The notes under the pieces are model-generated. The model worked only from the letters and a program-made list of their open reading frames with translations, ran no database searches and was not told where the DNA came from. Below, one piece after another: positions 16,276 to 31,189 of a DNA stretch of 64,000 nucleotides. Every line of letters begins with the position of its first letter. The stretch's first letter is position 1. Origin of the DNA: Streptomyces sp. NBC_01268 (lineage in GTDB: Bacteria > Actinomycetota > Actinomycetes > Streptomycetales > Streptomycetaceae). The position numbers and the translations under genes are program-made. The DNA lies in assembly GCF_036240795.1 (NCBI RefSeq), contig NZ_CP108454.1, positions 4,898,001 through 4,962,000 of the forward strand. Direction: 5' to 3'.

Positions 16276-16539
16276 TCAGCGCGCGGTCAGCTCCCAGGCC
16301 GTCACGGCGACCGTGGCCACCGCGGCGAGGGCGCCGATGCTGGCGAGCGGCCAGCGGGCGCGCTCCAGGGCGTCGAGCCGCGCCTCGTGGTCGGCGAGCT
16401 GCTTGTCGGTCTGGTCGCTGCGCTGGACCAGCAGGGCGAGCGAGCCGTCGACGCGGGCGAAGCCGGCCTCCAGCGTGCCGCGCAGCCGTTCCAGTTCGAG
16501 CGCGACGGCGACCGGATCGTTCGGGTCAGACTCGGTCAT
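16276..16539 (-). CDS. XhlA-like coiled-coil membrane protein of the lysis cassette
   Basis: An 87-aa protein. Residues about 10-58 are a charged helix with heptad-like pattern (LERLRGTLEAGFARVDGSL through DHEARLDALERAR). One transmembrane segment, PLASIGALAAVATVAVTAW, is at the C-terminus. This is the layout of haemolysin XhlA-type proteins that accompany phage holins and endolysins. It overlaps the holin gene by 14 bases, so they are translationally coupled. It is the last gene of the tail operon. The family is inferred from topology and context, not a specific motif. Confidence 0.6.
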   Translation of the reverse strand: MTESDPNDPVAVALELERLRGTLEAGFARVDGSLALLVQRSDQTDKQLADHEARLDALERARWPLASIGALAAVATVAVTAWELTAR

Positions 16540-16837
16540 CGGCCGCCTCCGGAAGGGCTTCCGGGCGGACCTCCGGGTCGGCCACGGGCGCGAGCTCGTG
16601 GACCGGGGCGAGCTCCTGGGCCGGCGCCGGGTCGACGCGCAGCCAGGACGGCAGCAGCGCCTGGAGCACCGGGTAGGCCATCACCCGGGTGAGGGCGCCG
16701 GCCACGGCCAGGGCCGCCGCGACCCAGGGGAGGGTCGCGGGGATGCCGGAGGCGTCGACCAGGGCCGGCAGCACCACGGCGATGCCGACGGCGGTCTGCA
16801 GCACGGTGCGGACCGTGCGCTTGGCGGCTTCGGACAT
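16526..16837 (-). CDS. holin-like membrane protein
   Basis: A 103-aa protein beginning MSEAAKRTVRTVLQTAVGIA. It has two hydrophobic segments, about residues 12-28 and 35-62, then a Pro/Glu/Ala-rich polar tail of ~35 residues. This two-helix plan and the KRTVRTVLQ N-terminus are typical of actinophage holins placed next to an amidase. ATG 16837 follows AAGGAGAACCACCC. It would permeabilise the membrane so that the amidase reaches the wall and particles are released. Confidence 0.72.
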   Translation of the reverse strand: MSEAAKRTVRTVLQTAVGIAVVLPALVDASGIPATLPWVAAALAVAGALTRVMAYPVLQALLPSWLRVDPAPAQELAPVHELAPVADPEVRPEALPEAADDRV

Positions 16838-16875
16838 GGGTGGTTCTCCTTGCGTGGGGGTTCGGTGCGGGGGGC

Positions 16876-17784
16876 TTACTGGACGAAGGGGACCTTCAGC
16901 GCGTTCCAGGAGGCGCGGCCCGGCCAGCCGTCGGCGTCGGTGCCGGAGAAGCCCAGCTTCCGCTGCCAGGCGGCGTACGACCGGCGGTCGGCCTCGGACC
17001 AGCGCGGGCTCGGGCCGACCTGGTAGCGGCCGCAGCCCTCGGCGGTCAGCCGGCGGCCCATCGCGGTGACGACGGGGGAGCTGGGGGTGGTCCTGAAGAA
17101 GGCGGTCCCGGGGAACGGCTGGTAGCGCGGGGCGGCCGGCTTGGGGGCGGTGGGCTTGGCGGCCGGGGCGGAGCCGAGCCGCTTCTGGACCCGCTCGCGC
17201 ATGCCCGGCATGCCGAAGCCGCGCGGGTCGTTCTTCCAGTCGGACCACTCGGAGTGGCCGATCACGGACTTGGCGCCCCAGTCGTGGGCGCGGCACAGGG
17301 CGGCGGACACCCGCTCGATGGCGTCGAGCTGGGCGGGCGGCCACGGGTCGCTGCCGTTGCCGAGGTTGATGCACTCGAAGCCGTAGAAGCGGGAGTTGCC
17401 GTCGACGGCGCCGGCGCTGCCCTGGTGTTCGCGCGGGCCGGGCGGGCGGTCCCCGTAGGTCTCGGTGATCACGGCCTGGAGGACGGACGGGTCGCCGCCG
17501 CCGGCGTGGTTGGCGCGGCCGCTCGCGACCAGGTGGACCGAGCCGTCCTTGGCGATCACTCCGTGGCAGAGCGGCCCGGGCAGGCCGGCGTAGCCGTCGT
17601 AGCAGAGCGCGACGGTGTTCTCCGTGCCGGCGGAGACGGTGTGGTGGATCATCACGCCGGTCACGGGGCCCCAGGCGCCGTGGCCGTTGCGGTTGTGGGT
17701 GCGCCAGCCGTCGTGCTCGACGACGGTGACGCCTTCGGCGCGGAGCGCCGCGACGAAGCGGTCCGCGGACAGGGGAGTGGCCAT
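16876..17784 (-). CDS. N-acetylmuramoyl-L-alanine amidase (endolysin) with C-terminal binding domain
   Basis: A 302-aa cytosolic lysin without a signal peptide. The Amidase_2/PGRP fold shows MIHHTVSAG (zinc His), RANHAGGGD, YGFECINLG, and SVIGHSEWSDWKNDPRGF (second zinc His). A Pro/Ala linker at about residues 205-220 leads to a C-terminal domain (SEADRRSYAAWQRKLGFSG to DADGWPGRASWNALK) of the type found in peptidoglycan-binding Streptomyces phage lysins. It cleaves the MurNAc-L-Ala bond and, with the holin, should lyse the producer. ATG 17784 follows GGAGGACACAG. A terminator hairpin lies just upstream of its ribosome binding site. Confidence 0.9.
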   Translation of the reverse strand: MATPLSADRFVAALRAEGVTVVEHDGWRTHNRNGHGAWGPVTGVMIHHTVSAGTENTVALCYDGYAGLPGPLCHGVIAKDGSVHLVASGRANHAGGGDPSVLQAVITETYGDRPPGPREHQGSAGAVDGNSRFYGFECINLGNGSDPWPPAQLDAIERVSAALCRAHDWGAKSVIGHSEWSDWKNDPRGFGMPGMRERVQKRLGSAPAAKPTAPKPAAPRYQPFPGTAFFRTTPSSPVVTAMGRRLTAEGCGRYQVGPSPRWSEADRRSYAAWQRKLGFSGTDADGWPGRASWNALKVPFVQ

Positions 17785-17804
17785 CTGTGTCCTCCGGGCA
17801 TGCG

Positions 17805-17830
17805 AAAACCCCGGCCGGATCGGCACGGGG
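17805..17830 (-). terminator. terminator/attenuator ahead of the lysis genes
   Basis: On the - strand, CCCCG and CGGGG (17826-17830 with 17809-17813) enclose GCCG/CGGC. The stem is followed by TTTT at 17805-17808. It lies between the last tail gene and the amidase, so read-through would control lysis-gene expression. Confidence 0.75.
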
Positions 17831-17869
17831 CGTGGGACGTACGGGGGCGGGCGGGGCGGCCCGCCGGGG

Positions 17870-18250
17870 TTACGGGGCCGGGGCGGGGGCCGGCGGCGCC
17901 CAGGTGGCGCAGAGCGCGGCGTAGGCGGCGCGACGGTTGTCGAAGTCGGCGAGCGCCGTGGCGACGGCCCGCTGCACGGCCGTCGGGTCGGGGACGGCCG
18001 GGTTGCCGTCCTGGGCGGTGACGACGACGAGGGCGCTGCCGCGCAGGACGGCGTCGCCCGCGCCGTTCTCGCTGAACGTGGCCGAGACCTGGACCGACGG
18101 GTACTGGCCGGTGACCGGGTCGCGGTCGAGGGTGCCGCCGAAGGAGTTGTCGTAGACGCGGATGTCGAGGGTGTGGCCGTTCTCGGTCACACGGGCGCGG
18201 CCCGCGTAGTCGATGGCCACGCCCCACGGCTGGGTGGGGTCGATGTTCAT
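17870..18250 (-). CDS. small tail-operon protein of unknown function
   Basis: A 126-aa protein. Residues 1-70 look beta-rich (GHTLDIRVYDNSFGG, YPSVQVSATFSENG) and residues 88-118 helical, ending in a Pro/Ala tail. There are no membrane or catalytic motifs. ATG 18250 follows GAGGAGCACCC. Its position between the tail-tip genes and the lysis cassette suggests a minor tail or fibre-accessory role, but I do not recognise the family. Confidence 0.6.
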   Translation of the reverse strand: MNIDPTQPWGVAIDYAGRARVTENGHTLDIRVYDNSFGGTLDRDPVTGQYPSVQVSATFSENGAGDAVLRGSALVVVTAQDGNPAVPDPTAVQRAVATALADFDNRRAAYAALCATWAPPAPAPAP

Positions 18251-18280
18251 GGGTGCTCCTCTTGCTCCTGGACGGGCCGG

Positions 18281-18844
18281 TCAGCTCTGGGTGCCGTAGA
18301 TGAGGACGGGCTGGGCGTAGACGGTGCCGCCGGAGGCCAGGGCCTGGATCTCGATCTTCATGGTCTGGCTGAACCGGGTCTTGAAGTCGCCGGGCAGCAG
18401 GCCGGTGTAGTCGTAGGTGGTGCCGGCCGTGACGGTGGGGCCGAACTGCACGTCGTCGACCATGACCCGGACCTGGCCGGTGGCGCCGGTACCGGCCGCG
18501 GTGCTCAGCGAGATGCGCATCTTCGGCTGCCAGATCGGGTTGAAGGACCGGGCGATGGTGGTGAAGGAGCCGTTGGCGGTCTGCGGCCAGCGGGTCGTGC
18601 TGGTGTCCTTCGGCGGCATCAGCGCGAGCCAGGGCCGGGCGAGGCCGCCGGTCACGATGTCGTCCGAGAAGATCTCGTGGACGTACCCGTCGTACATCCG
18701 GATCACCGGCCGGGTGGGCACGGTGTTCGGGTCGGGGCGGATCTCGTTGAGCGGCGGCCGGGTGTTGACGGCGGTGGACAGTGCCTTCAGCCGGCGCTCC
18801 ATCTGGTTGAGCCGGTCGATGATGTCCTCGGGCAGCTGGGGCAT
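18281..18844 (-). CDS. minor tail protein with N-terminal coiled coil
   Basis: A 187-aa protein. It starts with a short coiled coil (LPEDIIDRLNQMERRLKALS, residues about 4-23), then beta-rich sequence with GTTYDYTGLLPGDFK and VYAQPVLIYG. Proteins with an ERRLKAL helix followed by a beta domain are common at the tail tips of actinophages. The start codon overlaps the upstream stop (TGATG), so translation is coupled to the Gp37-like gene. It is likely a structural tip or adhesin component. Confidence 0.6.
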   Translation of the reverse strand: MPQLPEDIIDRLNQMERRLKALSTAVNTRPPLNEIRPDPNTVPTRPVIRMYDGYVHEIFSDDIVTGGLARPWLALMPPKDTSTTRWPQTANGSFTTIARSFNPIWQPKMRISLSTAAGTGATGQVRVMVDDVQFGPTVTAGTTYDYTGLLPGDFKTRFSQTMKIEIQALASGGTVYAQPVLIYGTQS

Positions 18845-19941
18845 CAGGCCTCCTCGAGGTAGAGCTCGGCGGTGTCGGGGCGGCCCCGCTCCGGGGGCGT
18901 GACCTTGACGCCGATGATGCGGTAGCGGGCGTCGAGGCCGGTGGAGAACCACTCGTCGGTGATCCGGATGCGGGCCACCCGACCGAGCAGCGCCGGCGGG
19001 ACGATCCCGCCGAGGTGGATGCTGACCTCGGGGATCAGGACGGCGCCGCGGGCCTCGGCGAGTTCGGCTGCGGCCACCTGGTTGAGGGTGAGCTGGTCAC
19101 CGATCTCGTTGTGGTCCGAGGACAGGTCGATCTTCGGCCAGCCGTCGACGAGCAGTCCGGTGTCGACCTGCTCGGCGGAGAACAGCGGCCGGGACTCGGC
19201 GCCGGCGTTGGAGTTCACCGAGGCGCCGCGGGCCATCGCGGTGGTGCCGCCGCGCGTCGCGTCGTACGGGAAGGAGTACGACAGGATGACGCCGGGCCGG
19301 TCGAAGAGCAGGTCGGTGGCGCCGGTACGGATCTTGGTCGAGCCGAGCCGGAGTTGCCGGACGCGCTTGCCGTCCTCCGGGTCCCGGTAGACCAGGATCT
19401 GGTACTCGAAGCCGTTCTGGAGGTCGGCGAGCTGGCTCAGGGCGTCCTGGTAGACGGTCTCGTCGCCGAGGCGGTAGTTGACCGTCCGCTTGATGTCGGA
19501 GGTCTCCTCGCCCATGGTGAGCGTGAAGCAGCCCGGGCCCTTGGTGAGCTCGGTCCACAGCTTGCGGGCGATCTCCAGCTGGTCGGTGTCCGTGAACGCG
19601 AGGTCGGTGCGGATGCGGCGGCGGGCCGCGTACGAGTCGAAGGTGGCGGCCTGCAGGGACAGGGTGAGCACCCCGCGCCCGCTGGACTGGAGCGTGGTGG
19701 TCCAGATGATGCCGCCCCACCACAGGTCGCCGCCGCGCTCCAGGTAGATCGCGGTGCGGCCCTCGCGGACCTTCTTGACCCGCTCGGCGATCTCCTGGTT
19801 GGGGATCGGGATGGTGCCGGACAGCGAGCCGGCCTTGCCGATGTAGTCGTCGAAGGAGACGTCGCGCAGCGGCAGGATGTCGATGGTCTGGTCGGTGATC
19901 AGGTCGCAGAAGATGGCCCGGTAGGGCGTGTCGAGTGCCAT
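18844..19941 (-). CDS. siphovirus Gp37-like tail-tip/baseplate protein
   Basis: A 365-aa protein predicted to sit below the distal tail protein. Early blocks are AIFCDLITDQTIDILPL and GSLSGTIPIPN, then ERGGDLWWGGIIWTTTL, which recalls the gp27-like hub fold of phage tail-associated proteins. Later AARRRIRTDLAF and the C-terminal RIRITDEWFSTGLDARYRI match the pattern of the ReqiPepy6 Gp37-like family, as I recall it. ATG 19941 follows AAGGAGG with 6-base spacing; the GTG one codon earlier is too close. No peptidase domain is visible. Confidence 0.72.
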   Translation of the reverse strand: MALDTPYRAIFCDLITDQTIDILPLRDVSFDDYIGKAGSLSGTIPIPNQEIAERVKKVREGRTAIYLERGGDLWWGGIIWTTTLQSSGRGVLTLSLQAATFDSYAARRRIRTDLAFTDTDQLEIARKLWTELTKGPGCFTLTMGEETSDIKRTVNYRLGDETVYQDALSQLADLQNGFEYQILVYRDPEDGKRVRQLRLGSTKIRTGATDLLFDRPGVILSYSFPYDATRGGTTAMARGASVNSNAGAESRPLFSAEQVDTGLLVDGWPKIDLSSDHNEIGDQLTLNQVAAAELAEARGAVLIPEVSIHLGGIVPPALLGRVARIRITDEWFSTGLDARYRIIGVKVTPPERGRPDTAELYLEEA

Positions 19942-19952
19942 CACGGGCCTCC

Positions 19953-21092
19953 TTACAGGACGTAGGTGGCGGAGACGCGGATGTTGCGTCCGCCGGCCAG
20001 CTGGCCGTTGGGGGACCAGGTGCGCAGGTCGATCTGCCCGTTGGTGTTGATGTTGGCGCCGCCCGAGCCGAAGCCGTCACAGGCGACGGCCTCGAAGGAG
20101 ATGGTGGGGCGCCAGCCGGCGGGCAGGGTGCACAGCGGCTCGTCGCTGATCTGGCCGGTGTTGTCGGCGGTGACGGTGGAGCCGGTGCGGGTGACGGTGA
20201 CGGTCATGGTGCACAGACCGCTCTTGGTCCTGCGGGCGAAGAACGAGACCACGCCCCAGTTGGGGAGCGGGGTGACCCCGCTGGTGGCGGTCTCGTTCTC
20301 GAGCGGCGGCTGGTAGTTCGCCCACGAGGTGCCGTTCCAGCGCTGGAGGTTGCCGACGTTGTCGCGGTACTGGCCGGTGTAGGAGCCGGTCGAGACGGTG
20401 CCGCTGGGGGCGACGCCGCCGATCTCCTTCGGGTAGGCGACCCAGGAGGTGCCGTCCCAGCGCTGGAGGAAGTGGGCGTTGTCGTTGTCCTGGTACTGGC
20501 CCGGGTAGGAGCCGGCCAGGCCCGCGTTGTTGTAGACGGGCAGGATGCCGCCGGACGAGACGGTCGTCTGGCGCAGGTCGGTGGCGGCGCCGCCGACCCA
20601 GTCGATGCCGCCGGTGCCGGCGGAGGCGCCCTTCTTGACCAGGACGGAGAACAGGACCAGCGAGCGCGCCGGGGCGGTCGGCAGGACCGGGACGGCCGCC
20701 GGCTGGCCCTTGATGATCTCGATGCCGGCCGTGTACTTGCCGAGGGCGTCGACGTCGTTGTCGTACACCCGCACGACGACCAGGTCGAGCCGCGGGTTGA
20801 GCGGGTCGCCGTCGCCGAAGGTGATGACGACGTCCTCGTCGAGGGCGACCGGGTAGGCGCCGTCGGTGTTGCCGCCCTGGATGACGGCCTTGCCGTGGTA
20901 GACGATGGCCGTCATCGGGCCGTTGGAGCCCATCCAGAGGCCGCCGACGCGGAACTTGCCGTCGTACGTGCCGGGCAGGACGCCCGACCGTACGCCGAGC
21001 GGGTTGACGGGGGTGGTGGCGCCGATGGCGGTGACGCGGGTGTTCTGACGGGTCTGACCGGTGGGCAGCAGCCAGCCGGAGCGTACGGGCAT
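19953..21092 (-). CDS. tail fibre/receptor-binding protein, paralogue A
   Basis: A 379-aa protein and first of three tandem paralogues. The shared N-terminal segment (WLLPTGQTRQNTRVT, residues 7-21) and a beta-rich region to ~190 probably attach it to the particle. Two copies of a G-S-Y-x-G-Q-Y-x-D ... LQRWxGTSW repeat follow at about 194-217 and 236-257. The last ~115 residues are unique, with LPAGWRPTISFEAVA and Gly/Asn-rich strands resembling phage fibre tips. This divergent tip is the candidate receptor-binding part. ATG 21092 follows GAGGAGAGATCC. Confidence 0.75.
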   Translation of the reverse strand: MPVRSGWLLPTGQTRQNTRVTAIGATTPVNPLGVRSGVLPGTYDGKFRVGGLWMGSNGPMTAIVYHGKAVIQGGNTDGAYPVALDEDVVITFGDGDPLNPRLDLVVVRVYDNDVDALGKYTAGIEIIKGQPAAVPVLPTAPARSLVLFSVLVKKGASAGTGGIDWVGGAATDLRQTTVSSGGILPVYNNAGLAGSYPGQYQDNDNAHFLQRWDGTSWVAYPKEIGGVAPSGTVSTGSYTGQYRDNVGNLQRWNGTSWANYQPPLENETATSGVTPLPNWGVVSFFARRTKSGLCTMTVTVTRTGSTVTADNTGQISDEPLCTLPAGWRPTISFEAVACDGFGSGGANINTNGQIDLRTWSPNGQLAGGRNIRVSATYVL

Positions 21093-21125: not shown

Positions 21126-22343
21126 TCAGTACTGCGGGGTGACCTGGATGTACGAGTTGTCGAACCAGGCCCGCACGTTCGCGTTGGAGGTCCGGAAGTA
21201 CGCGGTGACCGTGTAGGTCTGACCCGGGGTCAGGGCGTAGAGGCGCTGGATGGTCCCGACCGACTGGGCGTCCGTCGGGTCGGCGGACTTGGACGACATC
21301 GCGGCCAGTTCGTCCTCCACCTCGCGGACCACGGTGGCGCCCTGGGTGATCCGCACGCACATGAAGGCCGAGCTGGCGATGCCCGTGGTGCCGCTGGCCA
21401 GGCTGAGCTCCATCCGGGAGCCGAAGCTGAGGATGGCCTGCTTGGACTCGGGGGCGACGAAGCTCACCGCGAGCGGGTTCTCGGCCCGCTCGACGAGCGC
21501 GTTCACGTACGTCGTCGAGACCGTGTAGCCCGCGTCCAGCGAGTCGTTGAAGTACGGGCCGGGGTACGCCGGCGCCCACGCCGAGCCGGTCCAGCGCTGC
21601 AGCGGGCCGTCGGCGACGGCGCGGTACTGCCCGTTGTAGGTGCCGGCGCTCGCGGCGGGCACGGAGCTCGGCACGATGCCGCCGATGGCCTGCGGGTACG
21701 CGACCCACTTGCCGCCGTCCCAGCGCTGGAGCTGGTCGTTCGCGGTGTCCTGGTACTGGCCCGGGTAGGCGCCCGGCAGCACCGGGCCCTCGACCGGGAG
21801 GATGCCGCCGACCGCGACGACCGGGGTGCGCAGGTCCTTCAGGGCGCTGTTCCACGGGATGCCGCCGTTGCCCGCGCTGGCGCCGGCCGGGACGGTCACC
21901 TCGTACAGCGGCAGGCTGCGCGGCGGGGCGACCGGGGCCTTCGGGGTCTGCTCGGCGACGCCCTGGATGACCTCGATCCTGGCCTCGTTGCGGGTGGAGC
22001 CGTCGTAGAGGTTGTCGTAGATCTTCAGGACGACCAGGTCGATGCGCCCGTACTGGGCGTTGCCCACGGCGAAGGTGACCTGCTCGGCGGCGGGCAGGGT
22101 GACCGGGTAGACGCCCTGGGAGATGTCTCCCTGGATGACGGCCCGGCCCTCGGAGACGGTCGCGGCCATGGCGGACGCGTTCGTCATCCAGAAGCCGGAG
22201 AGGCGCCACTGGCCTCCGTAGGAGCCCGGCAGGATGCCCGAGCGCACCTGTACGGGGTTGATCATCGTGGTCGGCGTCTGGGTGAGCCGGGTGTCCTCGC
22301 GGGTCTGGCCGGTCTCGGCGACCCAGCTGCTGCGCAGGTTCAT
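21126..22343 (-). CDS. tail fibre/receptor-binding protein, paralogue B
   Basis: A 405-aa protein. It shares the N-terminal SWVAETGQTREDTRLTQ segment and two GQY ... LQRWxG repeats with its neighbours. Its C-terminal ~140 residues are unrelated to theirs: a beta-sandwich-like sequence with a YALTPGQTYTVTAYFRTSN stretch that resembles carbohydrate-binding modules. I chose ATG 22343 (preceded by GGAGAACCCC) over ATG 22355, which has no ribosome binding site. The carbohydrate-binding idea is inference from pattern. Confidence 0.75.
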   Translation of the reverse strand: MNLRSSWVAETGQTREDTRLTQTPTTMINPVQVRSGILPGSYGGQWRLSGFWMTNASAMAATVSEGRAVIQGDISQGVYPVTLPAAEQVTFAVGNAQYGRIDLVVLKIYDNLYDGSTRNEARIEVIQGVAEQTPKAPVAPPRSLPLYEVTVPAGASAGNGGIPWNSALKDLRTPVVAVGGILPVEGPVLPGAYPGQYQDTANDQLQRWDGGKWVAYPQAIGGIVPSSVPAASAGTYNGQYRAVADGPLQRWTGSAWAPAYPGPYFNDSLDAGYTVSTTYVNALVERAENPLAVSFVAPESKQAILSFGSRMELSLASGTTGIASSAFMCVRITQGATVVREVEDELAAMSSKSADPTDAQSVGTIQRLYALTPGQTYTVTAYFRTSNANVRAWFDNSYIQVTPQY

Positions 22344-22380
22344 GGGGTTCTCCATTCCAGGAGGGGCGGGGGAGCGGGGG

Positions 22381-23580
22381 TCAGGACTTGAGCCACTCGG
22401 CGGTGAGGGTGCAGGCGTAGCCGGAGCCGCCGAGCGTCTTGATCGGCGCGGTGTGGCTGTGGTAGCCGGCGAGCTGCAGGGTGTCGCCGGCGACGAGCCG
22501 CATCACGCCCGTGCCGCCGACGGAGATGGCGCCGTTGCCGGCGGGGACGAGCCAGGTCGTACGGGACTGGCCGACGCCGCTGACCACGATGCGGGCGCCG
22601 CGCATGCCGGTCTGGGCGTCGTTGGCCCAGGTGGCCTGGCCGGAGACGCGCCACCAGCCGGTGCGCGGCACGACGTAGGTGCTGGTCCCGTTCCAGCCGC
22701 GGCCGTCGTCGACCTCGACGGTCGGCAGGGTGAGCACGGTCCAGACGTTGGGCGGGACGGTCTGCTGCTCGCCGGACAGCCACTGCGTGACGCCGAGCAG
22801 GACCTTCGAGGTGCCCTCGGCGTACTGCCAGTTGGTGCCGTCCCAGCGCTGCAGGATCCCGGCGTTGTCCCGGTACTGGCCGATGTAGCTGCCGGTGGAC
22901 ACCAGGGAGCCGGGCGCGATGCCGCCGTTGGCCCGGGGGTAGGAGACCCAGGTCGAGCCGTCCCAGCGCTGGAGCATGCCGCTCGTGTCGCGGTACTGGC
23001 CGACGTACGCGCCCTTGAAGCCGCTCGTCGGCAGGATGCCGCCGAGCGCCACCACGGGCCAGTGCTGGGTGGTGACGCCGCCGGTGGTCCAGGCGATGCC
23101 GCCGGTGCCGGCCGAGGTGCCCTTCGGCACCCGGACCGTGTAGAGCTGCTGGGTGCTGCCGGGGCCGCTCGCCGGGGCGACCGGCTGGGCCGCCGGCGTG
23201 CCCTTGACCAGGCGGACGACGGCGTCGGTGACGCCGGTCTTGTCGTAGGCGTCGTCGATGACGGCCAGTTCGATCAGGTCGATCCGGTCGTACTGCGGAT
23301 CGCCGTCGGGGACGGTGATCGTCTCCGGGGAGATCGCGGCGACCAGGTAGGCGCCCTGACGGGTCTCGTCGCCCTGGATGATCGCCCGGCCGGTGCCGAT
23401 GGCGCACTGCATGGCGGACGTCGCGGTCAGCACGAAGCCGCCCGGCACGATGCCCTGCCGGGAGCGGAGCGGAGTCTCCTCGGGGCTCTGGCCGCTCGGG
23501 GTGAGCAGGGCGGCCAGGGTGAGACGGGTGTCCTCGCGGGTCTGGCCCGTGGGCTGGAGCCAGGCGGCCCGTACGGTCAT
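22381..23580 (-). CDS. tail fibre/receptor-binding protein, paralogue C with C1q-like tip
   Basis: A 399-aa protein. It has the same N-terminus (AAWLQPTGQTREDTRLT) and two GQYRD ... LQRWDGT repeats in the middle. The C-terminal ~140 residues (TVEVDDGRGWNGTSTYVVP to GGSGYACTLTAEW) have the GWWRVSGQATWAND and GDTLQLAGYHSH pattern of C1q/TNF-like jelly rolls, which form trimeric tips on many phage fibres. ATG 23580 follows AGAGGTGAACC. It is the fibre gene nearest the distal tail gene. Confidence 0.78.
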   Translation of the reverse strand: MTVRAAWLQPTGQTREDTRLTLAALLTPSGQSPEETPLRSRQGIVPGGFVLTATSAMQCAIGTGRAIIQGDETRQGAYLVAAISPETITVPDGDPQYDRIDLIELAVIDDAYDKTGVTDAVVRLVKGTPAAQPVAPASGPGSTQQLYTVRVPKGTSAGTGGIAWTTGGVTTQHWPVVALGGILPTSGFKGAYVGQYRDTSGMLQRWDGSTWVSYPRANGGIAPGSLVSTGSYIGQYRDNAGILQRWDGTNWQYAEGTSKVLLGVTQWLSGEQQTVPPNVWTVLTLPTVEVDDGRGWNGTSTYVVPRTGWWRVSGQATWANDAQTGMRGARIVVSGVGQSRTTWLVPAGNGAISVGGTGVMRLVAGDTLQLAGYHSHTAPIKTLGGSGYACTLTAEWLKS

Positions 23581-24588: not shown

Positions 24589-25845
24589 TCAGGCGTGGGC
24601 GGCCATGAGGAAGAGCAGGTCCTCGGCGGTCGACCGGGGGCCGGCGCTCGGGTCCTCGTGGAAGTCCCGGATCCGGTGCGGCGGTTGCGGCGGCTCGGTG
24701 AGCGCCGGGACCGTGCGGGACTCCAGGACGGTGAGCGGGTCGATGCGGGGCGCGGTGTCGGAGCCGGGGAAGACGACGCCGCCTTCGGCGAGCATCGGGA
24801 TCTTGGGGATGTCGACGCCGAAGTGCTTGCCGAGGAAGTCGAAGCTCAGCTTGTTGAGGCCGTCGATGATCCAGTTGGCGAAGGCGATGAGGCCCTTGAT
24901 GGGCCCCGTCACCACGCCGCTGACCGAGGTCAGCGCGCCCTTGATGAGCTCGCCGAAGCCGCGCATGGCCCCGCCGACGGCGGTGTTCGCGGAGCGGAAG
25001 AAGCCCGGGACCTGCTCGGTGAAGAAGGACAGCATCGGCTGGATGGCGCTGCGGATCCCGCCCATGGCGCCGGAGGCGATGCCGCGGAGGGCGGCGGACG
25101 AGGACGAGACGGAGGAACCGGTGCCGGAGAAACCGCCGACGGCTGCGCCGATGACGGTCAGGGCGGCGGTGATGACCGTGAGGTAGCCCTGGAAGTACGT
25201 CATGACGGCGTCGCCGAGGAACTCCATGACCGGCTGGAGGTACTTCCAGATCGACTCGAAGCCCTTGAACACCTGCTCCATGACCTGCTCGATGATGCGC
25301 TGTCCGGCCTCGCTGTTCATCGCGTACTCGATGAGCCAGGCGGCGACCGGGAGCAGGATGCCGATGAGGAAGCCGAGCGGGTTGGCCCGCATGGCGACGT
25401 TGACGGCCATCATGACGACGGAGGCGACGGTCATGACCATGCCGAACTTGTCCATCAGCTTGGTGATGATGTCGGTGACGGGGAGCAGCGGCACCAGGAT
25501 GGTGAGGATCCCGCCGAGGCCCTTGCTGAGCTTGCCGAAGGCTCCCTTGGCCTTGCCCGCCTTGTCGCCGAAGGACTTGACGCCGCGGGGGGCGGTGGTG
25601 CGGCCGATCTTGGTGGTGGAGGTGGCGGTGGTGGTGGCGTCGGCGCGGAAGCGCCCCAGTGCGCCGCCGGCTCCCTGGGCTTCGGTGGTGAGGCGGCGGA
25701 CCTTGCCCGACGCGTCCCGGAAGCTCTGCGCCTGCCGACGCAGGGTCGAGACGGCCTGCCGGAGGTTTCCGCTGACCGTCTGGAGCGCGGGCGTGACGGG
25801 CCCGAGCAGGTTGGTCAGGGGCAGGGTCGCCATGACCGCGGTCAT
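24589..25845 (-). CDS. tape-measure-like protein, second copy
   Basis: A 418-aa protein. The N-terminus is Gln/Arg/Thr-rich and helical. A hydrophobic core with several predicted membrane-active helices (about 108-190) includes GILTILVPLLPV and VVMMAVNVAM. Gly-rich sequence and a C-terminal FGVDIPKIPMLAEGGVVFPG block with RSTAEDLLFLMA follow. The block and the ending recur in the neighbouring upstream gene, so the two are paralogues. It overlaps that gene by 4 bases (ATGA). An alternative start is ATG 25833. Tape-measure helices set tail length and can line a membrane channel. Confidence 0.75.
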   Translation of the reverse strand: MTAVMATLPLTNLLGPVTPALQTVSGNLRQAVSTLRRQAQSFRDASGKVRRLTTEAQGAGGALGRFRADATTTATSTTKIGRTTAPRGVKSFGDKAGKAKGAFGKLSKGLGGILTILVPLLPVTDIITKLMDKFGMVMTVASVVMMAVNVAMRANPLGFLIGILLPVAAWLIEYAMNSEAGQRIIEQVMEQVFKGFESIWKYLQPVMEFLGDAVMTYFQGYLTVITAALTVIGAAVGGFSGTGSSVSSSSAALRGIASGAMGGIRSAIQPMLSFFTEQVPGFFRSANTAVGGAMRGFGELIKGALTSVSGVVTGPIKGLIAFANWIIDGLNKLSFDFLGKHFGVDIPKIPMLAEGGVVFPGSDTAPRIDPLTVLESRTVPALTEPPQPPHRIRDFHEDPSAGPRSTAEDLLFLMAAHA

Positions 25846-27044
25846 CCGCGCGCCTTGGCCAGGTACATCAGCGCGTCCGCGGTGGACTGCGGGTCGCTGT
25901 TACGGGCCGCGTGGTAGTTCTCGATGTGCAGCCCGACGCCGCCGCCCCGGCCCGACTGCAGCTGTGCCGACATCCGCGCCCGGCGCGCGGTCATCGCGAG
26001 CAGCCGGTCCAGCTTGGAGAGCGGGAGCACGGCCTCGGCCTCGCCCGCCTCGGCGATGATCGCGGGGACACCACCGGCGCGCGGCATGACGACACCACCG
26101 GTGGCCAGCATCGGGATGGTGGGGACGCTGACGCCGAAGGTCTTGCCGCCGACGATCGGCACCCAGCCCGGGACGCTGACCTTGACCCGGTTGACGGCGC
26201 CGATCAGGCGGTTGATCAGGCCGATGATGGAGTTGATCGGGCCGGAGACGCCGCTCTTGATGCCGTTGAACGCCCGGGACGCGATGTCCTTGAGGCCGTT
26301 CCAGATGGACGACATCTTGTCCTTGACGGCCTGGAAGGCGCTGGGGATCGCGCTCTTGATCCAGTTGACCACCGGGGTGATGACGGCCTTGATGCCGTTC
26401 CAGACGGTGCTGATGACCGTCTTGATCGCCTTCATCACGGTGGTGATGACGGTCTTCCAGATGTTCACGTAGGTCTTGACGACGGTGGCGACCGCCTTGA
26501 CCACGGTCGAGATGGAGCTCTTGATGGCGTTCCAGACCGTCTTGATCAGCGCGCCCGCGTTCTTCATGATCGGGCCGATGGCCTTCATGACGGCGCTGAT
26601 GACGACCTTGATGGCGTCGAACGCCTTCTTCATGATCGTCTGCATGGTCTTCGAGCGGGACGCCATCTCGACGATCTTCTCGATGAGCGGCATGAACAGC
26701 TCGATCAGACGGGCCAGGAAGTTGCCCTTCATGGACTTGTTGAGCTTGTCCTGGCCCTTGGCGGCCTTCCCCGCGCCGGACTCGTACTTGCCCAGCTTGC
26801 CGCCGGCGGACTGGCCGGTCTGACCCGCCTTGGCCATCGAGCGCTCGGCCTGGTCGGAAGCCGTCTTGAGGCTCTTGAGCTGAGAGGTGGTCGACTGGGC
26901 ACTGGTCTTGAGCTGCTTGACGCCGTTCGAGGCGGAGGTGGAGCCGCTGGCGACGCGGGTGACGGCCTGCGCGCTCTGCTGGGCGTTGTTCTTGAGGTTC
27001 TTCAGGGCCGATGACGTGCCGGTGAGGGCTTTGGCGAGAGACAT
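25842..27044 (-). CDS. tape-measure protein, first copy
   Basis: A 400-aa protein. Residues 1-105 are Ala/Ser/Lys/Gln-rich coiled coil. About 108-270 is a run of amphipathic repeats built on VWNAIKxxI and VVKAV units, typical of tape measures. The C-terminal part has WVPIVGGKTFGVSVPTIPML, ATGGVVMPRAGGVPAIIAEAG, and a PQSTADALMYLAKA end. It is far shorter than the 800-2000 aa tape measures of most siphophages. ATG 27044 follows AGGTGAACC. Confidence 0.85.
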   Translation of the reverse strand: MSLAKALTGTSSALKNLKNNAQQSAQAVTRVASGSTSASNGVKQLKTSAQSTTSQLKSLKTASDQAERSMAKAGQTGQSAGGKLGKYESGAGKAAKGQDKLNKSMKGNFLARLIELFMPLIEKIVEMASRSKTMQTIMKKAFDAIKVVISAVMKAIGPIMKNAGALIKTVWNAIKSSISTVVKAVATVVKTYVNIWKTVITTVMKAIKTVISTVWNGIKAVITPVVNWIKSAIPSAFQAVKDKMSSIWNGLKDIASRAFNGIKSGVSGPINSIIGLINRLIGAVNRVKVSVPGWVPIVGGKTFGVSVPTIPMLATGGVVMPRAGGVPAIIAEAGEAEAVLPLSKLDRLLAMTARRARMSAQLQSGRGGGVGLHIENYHAARNSDPQSTADALMYLAKARG

Positions 27045-27100: not shown

Positions 27101-27820
27101 TCAGGCTTCTTGGGCGGCTTGCCTGAGCGCGGTCCGCAGCGAGTTGACGTCCTTCGTGGTCGCCTTCGCGGCCGTCTTGAACCGGTTCTTCGCGCGCTCC
27201 TCCTTGCGGCCGTACAGCTGTGCCTTGCGCATGAAGGTGCGCGCCTTCTTCTCGATCCGGGCCGCGGACTTCGTGATGTCCTTGAGCGCGTCGCGGGCCT
27301 TCTTCTCCTCCGCCCGGGCCTGGCGGGCCTTCTCCTTGACCTTGGCCAGCCACTCGTCGGATTCCTTGCCCTGGCGGTGGCGCTTCTCGGCGAAGGGGAC
27401 GCGGGCTTCGGCGTCCTGGCGCCTGGACACGGCGTTCTTGTACGCGTCCTGGGCGGCGGTGACCTTGTCGAGGCGCCGCTTCACCTTGGCGTGCCGGCGG
27501 TTCAGCTTGCGCTGGAACTTCTCCATCTTGAGCTGGAAGTGCTTGGCCGGGTCGGCCAGCTTCCAGCCCCTGATCTGGCGCCCCATCACGGTGAGGCCCT
27601 TTTCGTCGATCTTGATGGCGGCGTAGCCGAGCGAGGCCACCGTCAGACCGGCGAACTCCATTTTCAGGAGCGTGATGTCGGCCTTCATGCCCGAGACGGT
27701 GCTCGAGAGGTTGACCGCGGTCTTCTTGGTCTCGGTGTAGTCCTTCTGGAGGTCGAGCCACGGGGGCGCCTTGACCAGCGCTCCTGAGATGTCCTGGATG
27801 GGATCGGGAACGGTTCCCAT
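27101..27820 (-). CDS. basic coiled-coil tail-operon protein
   Basis: A 239-aa protein. After a neutral N-terminus (APPWLDLQKDYTETKKTAVN) and a possible hydrophobic stretch (about 54-70), residues ~90-235 are almost continuous Lys/Arg/Glu/Ala helix (KFQRKLNRRHAKVKRRLDK, RKAQLYGRKEERAKNRFK). It sits where a tape measure would begin and could be a separate N-terminal tape-measure section or a tail-core protein. ATG 27820 follows GAGGACACCC. I do not recognise a named family. Confidence 0.62.
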   Translation of the reverse strand: MGTVPDPIQDISGALVKAPPWLDLQKDYTETKKTAVNLSSTVSGMKADITLLKMEFAGLTVASLGYAAIKIDEKGLTVMGRQIRGWKLADPAKHFQLKMEKFQRKLNRRHAKVKRRLDKVTAAQDAYKNAVSRRQDAEARVPFAEKRHRQGKESDEWLAKVKEKARQARAEEKKARDALKDITKSAARIEKKARTFMRKAQLYGRKEERAKNRFKTAAKATTKDVNSLRTALRQAAQEA

Positions 27821-27869: not shown

Positions 27870-27901
27870 GAGCCGCCTGTCCCCGGCGGGGGAGGCGGCT
27901 C
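27870..27901. terminator. hairpin between the 63-aa gene and the coiled-coil gene
   Basis: GAGCCGCCT (27870-27878) pairs with AGGCGGCTC (27893-27901), with an inner CCCC/GGGG pair. There is no T-run. It may reduce read-through or protect the downstream mRNA. Confidence 0.5.
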
Positions 27902-27951
27902 GTGTGCGTGGGCGGCGGGTTGATCCCGCCGGCGAGGGCGTGGCGTGGGTG

Positions 27952-28143
27952 TCAGCGGCGGCGGAGTTCGGCCAGGGCGTCGTTCCAGCCGGCCGTGTAG
28001 GCGCGGGTCTCGCGAGCCGCGACCTCTGCGTCGAGGGTGGCGAGCAGTGCGCGCTTGTCGAGGGGACCGGGGCCTTGGAGCAACGCGTTGAGCCTGTCGT
28101 GGAGCGTGCTCCCTGCGCGGCTTCCCCCGGTCTGAGACGTCAT
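27952..28143 (-). CDS. 63-aa protein heading the second tail transcription unit
   Basis: A small helical protein. The C-terminal half reads LDAEVAARETRAYTAGWNDALAELRRR. ATG 28143 is preceded by GGAGGGCAGGGCACC, and a candidate promoter lies 40-70 bases upstream. The ETxxxTAGWxxA motif reappears in the divergent gene at 28393, so the two proteins may be related or interact. The function is unknown; a regulatory or assembly role is possible. Confidence 0.55.
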   Translation of the reverse strand: MTSQTGGSRAGSTLHDRLNALLQGPGPLDKRALLATLDAEVAARETRAYTAGWNDALAELRRR

Positions 28144-28182
28144 GGTGCCCTGCCCTCCGGTGATCGAACTACTGTGCGATGC

Positions 28183-28212
28183 ATTGTCGAACGAAAGTTC
28201 GAACTTTGTCGA
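28183..28212 (-). promoter_or_regulatory. candidate promoter with embedded palindrome, tape-measure/fibre/lysis unit
   Basis: Reading the - strand, TCGACA (28212-28207) and GACAAT (28188-28183) are 18 bases apart. The 14-bp perfect palindrome AAAGTTCGAACTTT (28194-28207) fills the spacer. TCGAAC also occurs at 28164-28169, 28188-28193 and 28199-28204. This is the layout of a repressor operator over a promoter. The rest of the 249-base divergent gap (28144-28392) shows no gene. Confidence 0.5.
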
Positions 28213-28392
28213 GCCTGAAACGCCCGGCGCGGCGTCTTCCACCGGGGTCGCCTCAGAACGGTCCTGATCGGAGCCAGTGTTCGAGCCGGGGTACTCTGGA
28301 TGGCGCGTTCCCCGAACCTGACACAGTCGGGGGACGGCGGGGCGCGAGGGGCGCGCGGGGACCCCAGGGGGCTTGGAAGGCAGTGCTGACGC

Positions 28393-29157
28393 ATGGACAC
28401 GGAGCCGGGAGCTAGCCGGCGGGAACGGGCCGTCGACTGGCTCGAGTCCCACCCGGATCTGCCCCATCTGTTCGCACGTCTCGCGGAACTGGTCCATGTC
28501 ACCGGCTACGCCCCGGAGGACCTCGTCGTCCTGCCCCGCTCCGAAGTGGACCGCCGCGAGACCGCAGGCTTCACCGCCGGATGGGCCGAGGCCGTCTCCG
28601 ACGAACTGCCGCGCATCCGCAGGGAGTACGAGAAGCGCGTCGCCGACGCCTACGCGCAGGGACAGGGCGACGCGCGTGGTATACGCCGCCCCCAGCGACG
28701 GTCGGACACGCCCCAGGACGGCGCCCGGGTCATCGCGCTGCCCTTCGCCCGGCTCCTGGAACCCCCGGCCGTCGTGGTCCAGGCCGAGGAACGGGTCCGC
28801 AGGGAGCGGGAGTTGTTCGAACAGAGCCCCGAGCCGGAGCACGAGCCCGTTCATGAGCGGGAGCCCGACCCGACGCCGGAGCCCGACCTCCTGGTGACGG
28901 CTCAGGAGAGCCGTACGCGCAGGAACGCCCAGCCGGTACGGAAGGTGGTACGCGGCAAGGGCGGCCGCCCGATCGTGCCTCCCCTCGCCGGCGTACCCGT
29001 GCAGAGCGGAACGGGTGGTGAACGTCGGGACCCGGAGCCGGCCGAGCCGGACGCGGCGGCGGGCAAGGGGCGGCGTCTCTCCGACCGGGCCAGAGCCCTG
29101 GAGAAGGGAATGGCCGCGGAGCGAGCACAGGAAGCGCCCCCGGAGCCCGTTCCCTGA
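28393..29157 (+). CDS. hypothetical protein, the only + strand gene inside the tail cluster
   Basis: A 254-aa protein. Residues 1-90 look folded and helical (ERAVDWLESHPDLPHLFARL, then RRETAGFTAGWAEAVSDELP). From ~100 on it is Arg/Glu/Pro-rich and probably disordered, with several EPEHEP-like runs. Its TAGW motif is shared with the divergent 63-aa protein. The ATG is preceded by an in-frame stop two codons upstream and a distant GGAAGG, so the start is fixed but weakly translated. It separates the chaperone genes from the tape measures. No known family is recognised. Confidence 0.6.
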   Translation: MDTEPGASRRERAVDWLESHPDLPHLFARLAELVHVTGYAPEDLVVLPRSEVDRRETAGFTAGWAEAVSDELPRIRREYEKRVADAYAQGQGDARGIRRPQRRSDTPQDGARVIALPFARLLEPPAVVVQAEERVRRERELFEQSPEPEHEPVHEREPDPTPEPDLLVTAQESRTRRNAQPVRKVVRGKGGRPIVPPLAGVPVQSGTGGERRDPEPAEPDAAAGKGRRLSDRARALEKGMAAERAQEAPPEPVP

Positions 29158-29177
29158 CGGGAACGGGCTCCGGGGGC
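29136..29177. terminator. 19-bp hairpin terminator between convergent genes
   Basis: A perfect 19-bp stem (29136-29154 with 29159-29177) has the loop TGAC, and the TGA in it is the stop codon of the + strand gene. It faces the end of the GT chaperone reading frame on the other strand, so it can terminate both transcripts. It splits the tail cluster into two transcription units. Confidence 0.82.
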
Positions 29178-29193
29178 CGTGGGGGAGGCGGGG

Positions 29194-29903
29194 TCAGCCG
29201 AAGAAGCGGGCGAGGGTACCCAGGGACACCGCCTCGACGGCGCTCTCCTCCGTGGAGTCCTCGTCCTGCTCCTCCTCGTCCTCGTCCTCGTCGGAGTCGC
29301 CCGGACGAGGAATGGGCTGCGGGGGCTCGGGCTGTTCGCCGTCCTCGTCCGCGTTGACGGCGGCGAACATCCAGTTGGCGACGGCCAGATGGTCCACCGC
29401 GGCCGCCAGCAGGTGGTCGGTGACCGACCAGTCCGCGGCCTCGCCGTGCAACTCCCGCTGCACGGCGCTGTCGGCCGGCAGATGTGTGATCAGCGCGGCG
29501 ACGCGCCGACTGGAGAGATCACCGCGGTACCAATCGAGGAGATCGGTGCCGTAGTAGCGGAGGAAGTCCGCCTCAAGGGCCTCGGCGTGTTCGTCGACGA
29601 ACTCGACGAGGCTCAGTCTTCCCCCAGGCCGAGCCCGGTCTCCTCGCCGTAGGCCTCAAGGATCGCGGCGATGTCCTGCATCGTCACGTCGTGCTGTTCG
29701 AAGCGGGCGAACTGCGCCCCACCCATCAGGAGCGAGAGCAGACCGTCCACGTCGTTGTCGTCCAGCTTGCTCAGCTTCTTGGCGGTCGCGCGGGAGAGCT
29801 CGGTCGGGAGCGTGAAGGACTCGCCGTCCAGCTCGAAGGACCAGTCGTGGCCGGAGACCTCCAGGCGCTGGGCGCGAGCGGCGTTGACGTCGAAACGGGC
29901 CAT
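29194..29903 (-). CDS. tail assembly chaperone GT, made by -1 ribosomal frameshift
   Basis: Predicted fusion of ~236 aa. The ribosome starts at 29903, reads G for ~94 codons, slips back one base at GGGGGAA (29625-29619), and continues in the second frame to 29194. The extension begins RLSLVEFVDEHAEALEADFL, includes LRYYGTDLLDWYRGDLSSRRV and WSVTDHLLAAAVDHL, and ends with an acidic DEDEDEEEQDED tract. From the stop at 29656-29658 to the slip and well beyond it, the second frame has no ATG, GTG or TTG; the first GTG is deep inside at 29463. Independent initiation is therefore unlikely. By analogy with lambda G/GT it should coat the tape measure and recruit tube subunits. Confidence 0.85.
29613..29903 (-). 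CDS. tail assembly chaperone G
   Basis: A 96-aa protein that begins MARFDVNAARAQRLEVSGHD and has the DWSFELDGESFTLPTEL and DVDGLLSLLMGGAQFARF blocks seen in actinophage tail assembly chaperones. ATG 29903 follows AAGGAGTACGCACACC. It lies between the major tail protein and the tape measures, the conserved position. Its stop codon (29613-29615) comes two codons after the slippery site, so most ribosomes make G and a minority make GT. Confidence 0.85.
   Translation of the reverse strand: MARFDVNAARAQRLEVSGHDWSFELDGESFTLPTELSRATAKKLSKLDDNDVDGLLSLLMGGAQFARFEQHDVTMQDIAAILEAYGEETGLGLGED
29619..29625 (-). promoter_or_regulatory. programmed -1 frameshift slippery site
   Basis: On the - strand the codons are CTG GGG GAA GAC TGA. 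The heptamer GGGGGAA fits X-XXY-YYZ: the P-site tRNA re-pairs on GGG fully and the A-site tRNA re-pairs on GGA only partly. The -1 frame it enters is exactly the one that stays open to 29194. Confidence 0.8.
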
Positions 29904-29956
29904 GGTGTGCGTACTCCTTGTTCGCGTGGTTCGCGTGGGTGAAGAGCAGAAGGGGC

Positions 29957-29987
29957 GGGGCGGGACGGCGCGTGGCCGTCCCGCCCC
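29957..29987. terminator. hairpin between major tail protein and chaperone genes
   Basis: A perfect 13-bp GC stem (29957-29969 with 29975-29987) has a 5-base loop in the 106-base gap, without a T-run. It may attenuate transcription so that the abundant tube protein is made in excess over the chaperones, or stabilise the tube mRNA 3' end. Confidence 0.6.
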
Positions 29988-30009
29988 GGGTGGGGAGTGA
30001 TCCGCCGGA

Positions 30010-30612
30010 TCAGACCGTCGCGGAGTACTGGTCGTCCTTCATCAGGAAGGACGCCAGCGGCTTGCCGTCACCGTTCGACATCGCCGTGAAGGTCACGCCC
30101 AGCTGGGACGCGGCCTTGCGGTTGAGCTTGATGTCGTCGGTGGCGGTCACCTGGCCGCGCGGGATGATGAAGCGGTAGGTGACGGCGGTGGTGCCGCCGG
30201 CCTTCACGTCGGTGAACTCCAGGCCGAGGGCGCGGACGTCCGCGAACGGACGCTCGGCGATCTCGTACTTGTAGGTGCCGGTCGCCGGCGCCGGGTCGGC
30301 GTCGACCTTGCCGCCGCCCATGAAGAACGGCAGCGTGTCCTCGTTGAACTGGAGCAGCGAGAACTTCAGGGACAGGTCACGGGCCGAGTAGATGTAGTGG
30401 ACCGGGGAGACCGACTGCCACGAGTCGATGGCCTCCAGCTTGTCCTTCTTCGAGAACGTGACGCCGTCGCCGGTGGTGAAGCCGAGGTTGGTCCAGGACG
30501 ACCAGTCGGCGACCGCGTCGGCGCCGAAGTTGGGCGCGGCCGTGCCGACCTTGGCGACGTAGAGCTTGCCGCTGCCGGCGACGCGGATCTCGGCAGAGTT
30601 GTTTCCAGCCAT
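30010..30612 (-). CDS. major tail (tube) protein
   Basis: A 200-aa protein. It has the actinophage tube-protein pattern GSGKLYVAKVGTAAPNFGAD, followed by WTNLGFTTGDGVTFSKK, then FSLLQFNEDTLPFFMGGGKV, and a C-terminal RFIIPRGQVTATDDIKLNRK with AASQLGVTFTAM. Hexamers of this protein stack to form the non-contractile tube. AAGGAGAAACACCACC precedes ATG 30612. No sheath gene is next to it, which argues for a siphovirus-type rather than contractile particle. Confidence 0.9.
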   Translation of the reverse strand: MAGNNSAEIRVAGSGKLYVAKVGTAAPNFGADAVADWSSWTNLGFTTGDGVTFSKKDKLEAIDSWQSVSPVHYIYSARDLSLKFSLLQFNEDTLPFFMGGGKVDADPAPATGTYKYEIAERPFADVRALGLEFTDVKAGGTTAVTYRFIIPRGQVTATDDIKLNRKAASQLGVTFTAMSNGDGKPLASFLMKDDQYSATV

Positions 30613-30691
30613 GGTGGTGTTTCTCCTTGGATACAGAGGGGGTGGGGTCGCCGCCCCGGCGGCCGGGGGATTCCGGCTCCGGGTACGGCAA

Positions 30692-30720
30692 AGGCCCCGC
30701 TGGACGGTCCGGCGGGGCCT
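30692..30720. terminator. hairpin between tail terminator and tube genes
   Basis: AGGCCCCGC (30692-30700) pairs with GCGGGGCCT (30712-30720). On the - strand the stem is followed by TTTGCC. It lies in the 169-base gap before the tube gene and may act as a partial terminator. Confidence 0.55.
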
Positions 30721-30781
30721 GGTCTGGGGCGAGCGGCCGCAAGGGCCCTCGGGGGCGGGGCGTCGAGGAGACCGCTGGGGT

Positions 30782-31189
30782 CTACAGGACGTCCAGGGAG
30801 AGGCGGATCACGCAGAGGTAGCGGTTCGCGCCCCGGTAGAGGTAGTCGGGCATCCAGCGCGGCCCGTCCTCCTCCTCCACGTCGCTGACGTAGGTCACGC
30901 CGAGCTGCTTGCCGATGGTGGCGAGCAGCGCCCGGCGGGCCGCGTTGGCGGTGACGTGGGCCGCGGTCTTGTTCGGGCCGTAGACCTCGAACTCGATGAG
31001 CGGCTTGTCGACGTGCAGGTCGCCGATCCAGGCGCCGCCGCGGCGGTTGACCAGGACGGCGTTCTGCGTGCCGTCGAAACCGGCGGGCGCCTGGGCGGCG
31101 ACCGTGACGCCGGCGAGCGCCGGGTCGGCCTTGAGGACGTCGACGACCAGCTTCTCGACGTCCGGGAACGCACTCGGGGGAGTGGTCAT
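30782..31189 (-). CDS. tail terminator / tail completion protein
   Basis: A 135-aa protein. It starts MTTPPSAFPDVEKLVVDVLK and continues with TQNAVLVNRRGGAWIGDLHVD, KPLIEFEVYGPNKTAAHVTA and a closing YRGANRYLCVIRLSL, the pattern of siphovirus tail terminators (lambda gpU-like) found directly before the tube gene. It would cap the tube once its length is set; in a headless particle it forms the free top end. ATG 31189 follows GAGGAGAACCGTC. It is the first gene of the tail operon, whereas a complete phage would have connector and head genes upstream. Confidence 0.82.
   Translation of the reverse strand: MTTPPSAFPDVEKLVVDVLKADPALAGVTVAAQAPAGFDGTQNAVLVNRRGGAWIGDLHVDKPLIEFEVYGPNKTAAHVTANAARRALLATIGKQLGVTYVSDVEEEDGPRWMPDYLYRGANRYLCVIRLSLDVL

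Follow-up and report, generated by a model that had tools for sequence, protein, structure and literature searches.

A 64,000-nucleotide stretch of the Streptomyces sp. NBC_01268 genome (NZ_CP108454.1; one contig of 8,505,003 bases, 100% complete), called the window here, carries a cluster of phage tail genes between two housekeeping genes. All tail genes of this cluster are on the minus strand, from the first start codon at 31189 to the last stop at 16276. It is flanked by the 3' end of rpoC (12305-16204, plus strand), which lies beside 16276, and by rpsL (34706-35077, plus strand) on the other side. An original prediction, made from the sequence, described 16276..31189 as a headless non-contractile tail cluster and a candidate F-type tailocin, and inspection of start and stop codons confirmed these limits exactly. 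In the order of the operon, the cluster contains the following genes.

30782..31189, minus strand: tail terminator (phrog_123, 1.2e-20, searched with a longer frame), with its ATG at 31189
30010..30612, minus strand: tail tube protein (PF25681, 9.7e-56)
29613..29903, minus strand: tail chaperone G (phrog_10551, 2e-25), with a GGGGGAA run at the gene end
29194..29655, minus strand: T frame (phrog_1326, 2e-14), open from 29655
27101..27820, minus strand: 239-amino-acid (aa) coiled-coil protein with a hydrophobic stretch (by eye), no library match, at a variable position before the tape measures
25842..27044, minus strand: tape measure A (phrog_1535, 1.4e-24)
24589..25845, minus strand: tape measure B (phrog_3981, 3.3e-27)
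23620..24543, minus strand: distal tail protein Dit (phrog_5577, 1.2e-82; PF22768, 3e-9)
22381..23580, minus strand: fibre-like protein A (phrog_3398, 8e-51), with a predicted C-terminal jelly roll of the C1q/TNF type
21126..22355, minus strand: fibre-like protein B (phrog_3398, 6.7e-57)
19953..21092, minus strand: fibre-like protein C (phrog_3398, 2.4e-62)
18844..19941, minus strand: tail hub or minor tail protein (phrog_1885, 4.3e-60)
18281..18844, minus strand: small phage-family protein, probably of the tail (phrog_9849, function unassigned in PHROGs, 4.7e-29)
17870..18250, minus strand: 126-aa protein, no library match, with matches in 10 of 40 fetched stretches
16876..17826, minus strand (true start may be 17784): N-acetylmuramoyl-L-alanine amidase, an endolysin (PF01510, 1.8e-22; phrog_880, 4.2e-77)
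16526..16837, minus strand: holin-like small membrane protein (phrog_4316, 'unknown function', 2.2e-23)
16276..16539, minus strand: XhlA-like 87-aa protein (phrog_5225, 'unknown function', 3.2e-29; 75% identical to gene 23 of phage Ididsumtinwong)

The complete set of a non-contractile tail (tube, terminator, chaperones, tape measure, Dit, hub and fibres) is thus present. PHROG or Pfam profiles matched the terminator, tube, G/GT chaperones, tape measures, Dit, hub and amidase of the original prediction, including the terminator as the first gene of the operon. The tail frames are intact, and the inactivated tail genes that would have spoken for decay were looked for in the window and none was found. 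In the 16 minus-strand frames listed, the third-position GC content is 0.91-0.99. A gene caller based on codon usage, trained partly on these same tail genes, chose the same frames.

No sheath, capsid, portal, terminase or integrase family appeared among the PHROG and Pfam matches of the cluster and regulator proteins, as had been predicted. The products of the genes scanned from rpoC to rpsL included no integrase, a genome-wide integrase search not having been made. Head genes of the same element could lie elsewhere in the genome, and six capsid, portal and terminase families (PF03864, PF04860, PF05065, PF03354, phrog_104 and phrog_9) were searched genome-wide; each gave no match in the source genome (0/1). 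Among 14 control genomes, PF03864 matched in 2, PF04860 in 4, PF05065 in 4, PF03354 in 3, phrog_9 in 4 and phrog_104 in 0; phrog_104 matched in 4/4 prophage-bearing genomes of the genus. The same profile search names a portal and a major head protein in the distant prophages L061 and L063 (L numbers denote loci, G numbers genomes), and also a terminase (TerL) and a scaffold in L061; the tubes of these prophages are distant relatives of the window tube (33% and 28%). The head-protein families of these prophages, by our own clustering, occurred in 4 of 120 loci, all of them prophages (L061-L064), the other genes of the relatives having been profile-searched in part.

Three classes of element were rejected on these results: a temperate prophage, for which head, packaging and integrase genes were absent (six families genome-wide, and the rpoC-rpsL products for integrase); a gene transfer agent, for which the six-family search yielded no capsid, portal or terminase; and a contractile injection system, for which no sheath was found among the cluster proteins. 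It is highly improbable that heads made elsewhere, by satellites with capsids of their own or by other phages, are completed with the tails of this cluster. Such tail-borrowing satellites exist, and the tail terminator is kept here, but the six head families have no match in the source genome and no head-completion gene is among the profile matches of the cluster.

T lies in the -1 frame relative to G, and its reading frame extends without a stop into the last part of G, where the heptamer GGGGGAA, a usual slippery site, is found in 100 of 102 distinct G genes; a lambda-type G/GT frameshift (-1) is therefore very probable. The two tape measures, A and B, are paralogous (23% over 441 columns, 2e-29). 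Among 120 loci, many of them cut, two tape genes were called in 75, one in 31 and none in 14, and 62 of the 75 two-tape loci have an A of 390-405 aa and a B of 405-435 aa. The gene preceding tape A is highly variable among relatives, with coiled coils plus a hydrophobic stretch, and with collagen-like repeats in L098; it is a candidate pore or tape component.

The three fibre-like proteins are also paralogues. They share the phrog_3398 N-terminus, and their N-termini are 45-50% identical while their C-terminal parts are 25-28% identical. The structure model of fibre A has a mean pLDDT of 78 and a pTM of 0.45. Its C-terminal jelly roll matches C1q heads in Foldseek (TM to target about 0.8), and there are weaker matches to phage spike and receptor-binding proteins.

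A lysis cassette closes the operon. The amidase of the original prediction is confirmed by PF01510, and the labels holin and XhlA are given because of position and hydrophobicity, Pfam having returned no match, so that this part of the prediction lacks library support. A tRNA-Ala called by ARAGORN at 17289-17365, within the amidase gene and on the opposite strand, was set aside as probably spurious.

Two genes and a pair of predicted LexA boxes lie between T and the 239-aa gene.

28393..29157, plus strand: p254, a divergent 254-aa gene of low complexity, no Pfam or PHROG match (family of 42 gene calls including the window)
28187..28202: LexA (SOS) box, a perfect match to TCGAAC-N4-GTTCGA, position conserved
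28164..28179: second LexA box, with one mismatch, in the same form in several close relatives
27952..28143, minus strand: sm63, the 63-aa gene behind the LexA boxes (family F13, 54 members in the loci)

The gene list of the original prediction was right for the core genes and omitted these two genes and the boxes between them. Both boxes are inside the cluster; of 100 shuffled versions of the window, 3 reached two such matches. With up to one mismatch allowed, a box is present in 47 of 48 distinct 250-bp regions upstream of sm63 (0 in base shuffles), and p254 shares the sm63 box region in 22 of 35 cases. In the relatives' loci, no box was found upstream of tube, G, dit, hub, ami, xhlA, hth69, rpsL or fusA. 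Close relatives were counted singly, so these counts are not independent events. In loci of another design, a box stands before the terminator in 20 of 61 listed loci, usually beside a small divergent gene (F25) that by eye has a short motif around GW in common with sm63; elsewhere it follows T or, in a few loci, is close to xre. The same LexA code is likely to be read in the source genome, because the recA SOS box printed for S. venezuelae is identical in this genome and in three relatives. DNA-damage control is a usual trait of tailocins.

The tail operon is preceded by further predicted regulators and accompanying genes.

31364..31381, minus strand: palindromic operator, a predicted XRE-repressor site upstream of the tail operon
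31495..32328, plus strand: 277-aa protein, ATP-grasp-like by eye, no Pfam match, a passenger in S. venezuelae-type (close) loci only
32411..32620, minus strand: small helix-turn-helix protein (HTH_17, below the curated cut-off)
32614..33357, minus strand: conserved 247-aa protein that accompanies the tail cluster
33350..33697, minus strand: WhiB-like regulator (PF02467, 2.1e-7)
33942..34391, plus strand: XRE-type regulator, the predicted repressor (phrog_3949, 8e-12)

Within the close clade, the palindrome was found upstream of 26/26 terminators and of 23/24 xre genes, and at control genes it was found in 0/26 cases at tube, G and dit and in 0/23 at rpsL. The XRE regulator resembles a protein of phage Ididsumtinwong annotated as 'hypothetical' (27%, 1e-15). 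The gene for the 247-aa protein occurs in 35 of the 42 genomes with an orthologous tube versus 3 of 204 others (co-occurrence p = 6e-32), counted at a cut-off of E < 1e-30 that kept 38 of 41 listed genomes. In L112 (4279-6842) and similar loci, glycosyltransferase and mannosyltransferase-like genes are located between rpsL and the tail regulators; they are possibly receptor or self-protection genes.

Published data from S. venezuelae bear on the regulation of the cluster. In the available parts of Stratton et al. 2022 (PMC9380542), vnz_21525-21550 are a 'predicted prophage cluster' in which vnz_21525 ('phage tail fiber') is a LexA target induced 526-fold by mitomycin C, and vnz_21545 and vnz_21550 (190-fold) are also LexA targets induced by this compound. 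Both SOS-box 14-mers given there occur once each among 70 loci, and both are in L031 (genome G015), one between sm63 and p254 and the other 184 bases ahead of the Dit start, within the terminal part of tape B. We infer that L031, a locus orthologous to the cluster of the window, is the S. venezuelae cluster. The identity of the recA SOS box, common to the source genome and three relatives, has no power to single out G015. LexA binding and strong mitomycin induction would then be documented for an orthologue of the window's cluster, one that those parts of PMC9380542 do not identify as a headless tail or a tailocin. The evidence of damage induction consists of LexA boxes in the window and of induction in print for the presumed S. 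venezuelae orthologue only. A remnant prophage of S. venezuelae that resembles phage Chymera is noted in a survey of actinobacterial prophages (PMC10023795), and this remnant may correspond to the cluster.

The distribution of the cluster was examined in 246 genomes of the genus, 71 of which contain a tube match (E <= 1e-3). With orthologues defined by our own cut-off of at least 45% identity, 42 of the 246 genomes (source included) have an orthologous tube, and 29 further genomes have weaker matches only. Stretches were fetched from 35 of the 41 other orthologue genomes (not G024, G081, G116, G119, G201 and G242), together with five distant loci; rpoC or rpsL is within 18 of the 35 orthologous stretches, the others being located elsewhere or cut. 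Named genomes were represented by 80 of 126 tube relatives, some of the genomes being shared with the fetched set. Among these, rpsL was found in 58 of 65 loci with a full upstream flank, at 2.4-6.8 kb from the terminator. A search for the cluster between rpoC and rpsL in other genomes, proposed with the original prediction, therefore found it in many species. In the whole order, 82 of 293 genomes have tube matches, and only two of these are outside the genus. Tube and fusA distances are correlated (rho 0.54, 56 loci, 0/500 permutations), which fits a long residence and is still compatible with exchange within the genus.

Ratios of nonsynonymous to synonymous substitutions (dN/dS; Nei-Gojobori, median against up to 27 relatives) are 0.11 for xhlA (n = 2), 0.13 for hth69, 0.20 for xre, 0.35 for tube and Dit, 0.37 for the terminator and 0.44 for G and tape A, dS being probably underestimated due to the high codon bias. 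These values bear on the idea that the cluster is a decaying prophage remnant that recently lost its head and is now functionless. Its distal genes are clearly phage-related and the decayed locus L067 keeps xhlA, hol, a shortened ami, tube and term beside rpoC, but the window frames are intact, much of the core has a median dN/dS far below 1, the promoter motifs and the G heptamer are conserved, and no tube relative was found among 136 pattern matches in IMG/VR. Recent decay was rejected on conservation, selection and intact frames, since an orthologous tube is found in 42 of the 246 genomes and 58 of the 65 loci stand beside rpsL; absence from all other strains, which the original prediction had named as a sign of recent decay, is not what was found. 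We regard the remnant explanation as unlikely.

The locus exists in several forms. A compact one, found in L051 (beside rpoC), L045, L048, L050, L054-L056, L058 and L069, retains the front genes, the amidase end and most of the regulators, but with one tape measure and different tip proteins. L069 is peculiar in that its tail operon has the reverse orientation with respect to the regulators and rpoC. The remnant L067, at the same site, consists of rpoC, xhlA, hol, the shortened amidase, tube and terminator, followed by xre. In L046, L047, L059 and L070, the tail operon is upstream of a DnaE2-like gene and a second polymerase gene on the same strand, with one gene of about 57 aa between them (the polymerases were identified by profile in L046 only). 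dnaE2 is an SOS polymerase gene and, with the second polymerase, constitutes the SOS mutasome. A LexA-like box with one to two mismatches is found just before dnaE2 in all four loci, none of which showed amidase, hol or xhlA matches.

Alternatively, the tails may serve their own producer, in development or in the programmed death of hyphae, as the contractile injection systems of S. coelicolor do, and not kill competitors. In favour of this, the dnaE2-linked relatives show no lysis-gene match, the region upstream of the tail operon encodes a WhiB-like regulator, tail-derived contractile systems are reported to take part in cell death in Streptomyces, and mitomycin inhibits sporulation of S. 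venezuelae (PMC9380542). However, the amidase cassette is kept at the operon end in the rpoC-rpsL type, and the triplicated fibres with diverged C-termini fit receptor choice on other cells. On balance, this explanation appears rather doubtful.

The cluster of the window is intact, headless and non-contractile, with predicted LexA control, and it is probably a domesticated F-type tailocin. The cluster proteins show no sheath match, no head, packaging, integration or replication gene was recognised among the cluster and regulator proteins, and the lysis cassette contains a PF01510 amidase. The original reading is in this way supported: its refuters failed, and the LexA boxes and the S. venezuelae induction data were added to it. 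With particle formation and killing predicted from genes, the tailocin function is to be regarded as the most probable one rather than as established.

In the mechanism that we propose, DNA damage would trigger tail synthesis. The XRE protein would repress term-tube-G-T as well as its own operon, and LexA would repress the genes from sm63 to xhlA; RecA-driven loss of LexA would free the sm63-xhlA block directly and the term-tube-G-T block via a further step. A -1 frameshift would then produce the G-T chaperone, the two short tape measures would specify a short tail, and the three jelly-roll fibres would select the target. The amidase and the holin-like protein would lyse the producing hypha, releasing tails that may kill related bacteria via membrane depolarisation.

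Several observations weigh against this interpretation. The cluster is known here from its genes, no particle, lysate or killing having been observed, and only 42 of the 246 sampled genomes carry it. Decayed copies exist (L067, and a tube in two pieces in G008 and G224). The dN/dS values of the remaining genes are 0.43 for the amidase, 0.62 for the hub and 0.76 for the phrog_9849 protein (n = 2 each), 0.56 for T, 0.65-0.73 for fibres A and B, 0.90 for tape B, and 1.4 for fibre C (n = 3, some of the sequences compared probably being paralogues). At the same tolerance of one mismatch, LexA boxes are also found before xre (3/85) and term (1/103), and several loci have no box. With respect to S. 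venezuelae, the correspondence with L031 is itself inferred. The distance from the box to Dit is 184 bases versus 174 printed, that of the other pair differs by up to 18, one printed box is inside tmpB, and both 14-mers fit the consensus poorly in their 3' half. In its available parts, that report labels the genes no more specifically than 'phage tail fiber' and 'hypothetical', and it places them in a 'predicted prophage cluster'. As for the fibres, a strongly variable C-terminus was seen only in fibre B (six orthologues compared), and PHROGs gives the family head-type names: phrog_3398 is a 'virion structural protein' (head and packaging), and weaker matches are phrog_9534 'head protein' (5e-7) and phrog_13989 (7e-8). 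Therefore, the fibre assignment of the original prediction, contradicted by these names, rests on position, collinearity with a phage and the predicted fold.

That phage is Ididsumtinwong (Austintatiousvirus), which infects S. venezuelae. It has the same order of Dit, fibre, hub, phrog_9849 protein, amidase and two small proteins (35-75% identity) and the related XRE protein (27%). Unlike the cluster, it possesses terminase, portal, MuF, capsid and serine integrase genes, and it has one fibre gene and one 805-aa tape measure where the cluster has three fibres and two tapes. Only the last 32 residues of the phage tape measure resemble tape A. The phage tube shows no similarity to the cluster tube by BLAST, and the cluster is therefore either a mosaic or an element whose front half has diverged. 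It is likely, judging from these comparisons, that the cluster arose from an Ididsumtinwong-like phage that lost its head genes and integrase, while its tape measure was duplicated and its fibre gene triplicated. The amidase is 56% identical to that of phage Chymera. A live phage lineage with this tube was rejected as an explanation: the 136 pattern matches in IMG/VR included no tube relative (the search patterns miss distant relatives), a phage collection has 29 matching records, the best of the 20 listed reaching 30.8% identity, and megablast with the whole cluster found only 1-2% stretches in 8 phage records. Plasmids provided 2 distant records.

More broadly, the chances seem about even that these loci form an old, LexA-wired family of F-type tailocins, the first in Actinobacteria, with paired tapes and three jelly-roll fibres. 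In such a family the box would have shifted between genes while SOS control was kept, a dnaE2-linked branch would lack these lysis genes, and damaged hyphae would be turned into a genus-wide weapon. If this is true, a damage-triggered protein weapon would be a second competitive arm of Streptomyces beside small-molecule antibiotics, apparently also in the model S. venezuelae, and it would account for genes that rank among the most strongly mitomycin-induced LexA targets of that species and are filed as prophage. No description of the rpoC-rpsL locus as a tailocin was found in titles and abstracts of open-licence PMC papers (preprints being outside this scope), and the words 'tailocin', 'headless' and 'rpoC' do not occur in the available portion of PMC10023795.

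Among known systems, the contractile injection systems of Streptomyces (eCIS/SLP) are likewise derived from phage tails and common in the genus, eCIS being present in 94 of 116 complete genomes (PMC8910223, available parts). Those are contractile, whereas the cluster has no sheath match and encodes a siphovirus tube, Dit and an amidase. F-pyocins and Listeria monocins have the gene content of headless siphovirus-type tails, and the cluster, from its genes, shares this architecture with them and with the rhizoviticin of Allorhizobium. Rhizoviticin comprises tail and lysis genes without head genes, with gene levels that rise after UV (PMC10811719), and F-type tailocins are known in Gram-positives according to a 2024 review (PMC12090994), both sources being taken from the parts available. 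Unlike these systems, the cluster belongs to another host phylum and occupies a site flanked by housekeeping genes, where neither an integrase nor a replication gene was recognised, and its killing activity is predicted from sequence. The cluster would extend F-type tailocins to Actinobacteria, and the new features would be the LexA boxes inside the cluster, the two paralogous tapes, the three fibre-like genes and the dnaE2-linked branch.

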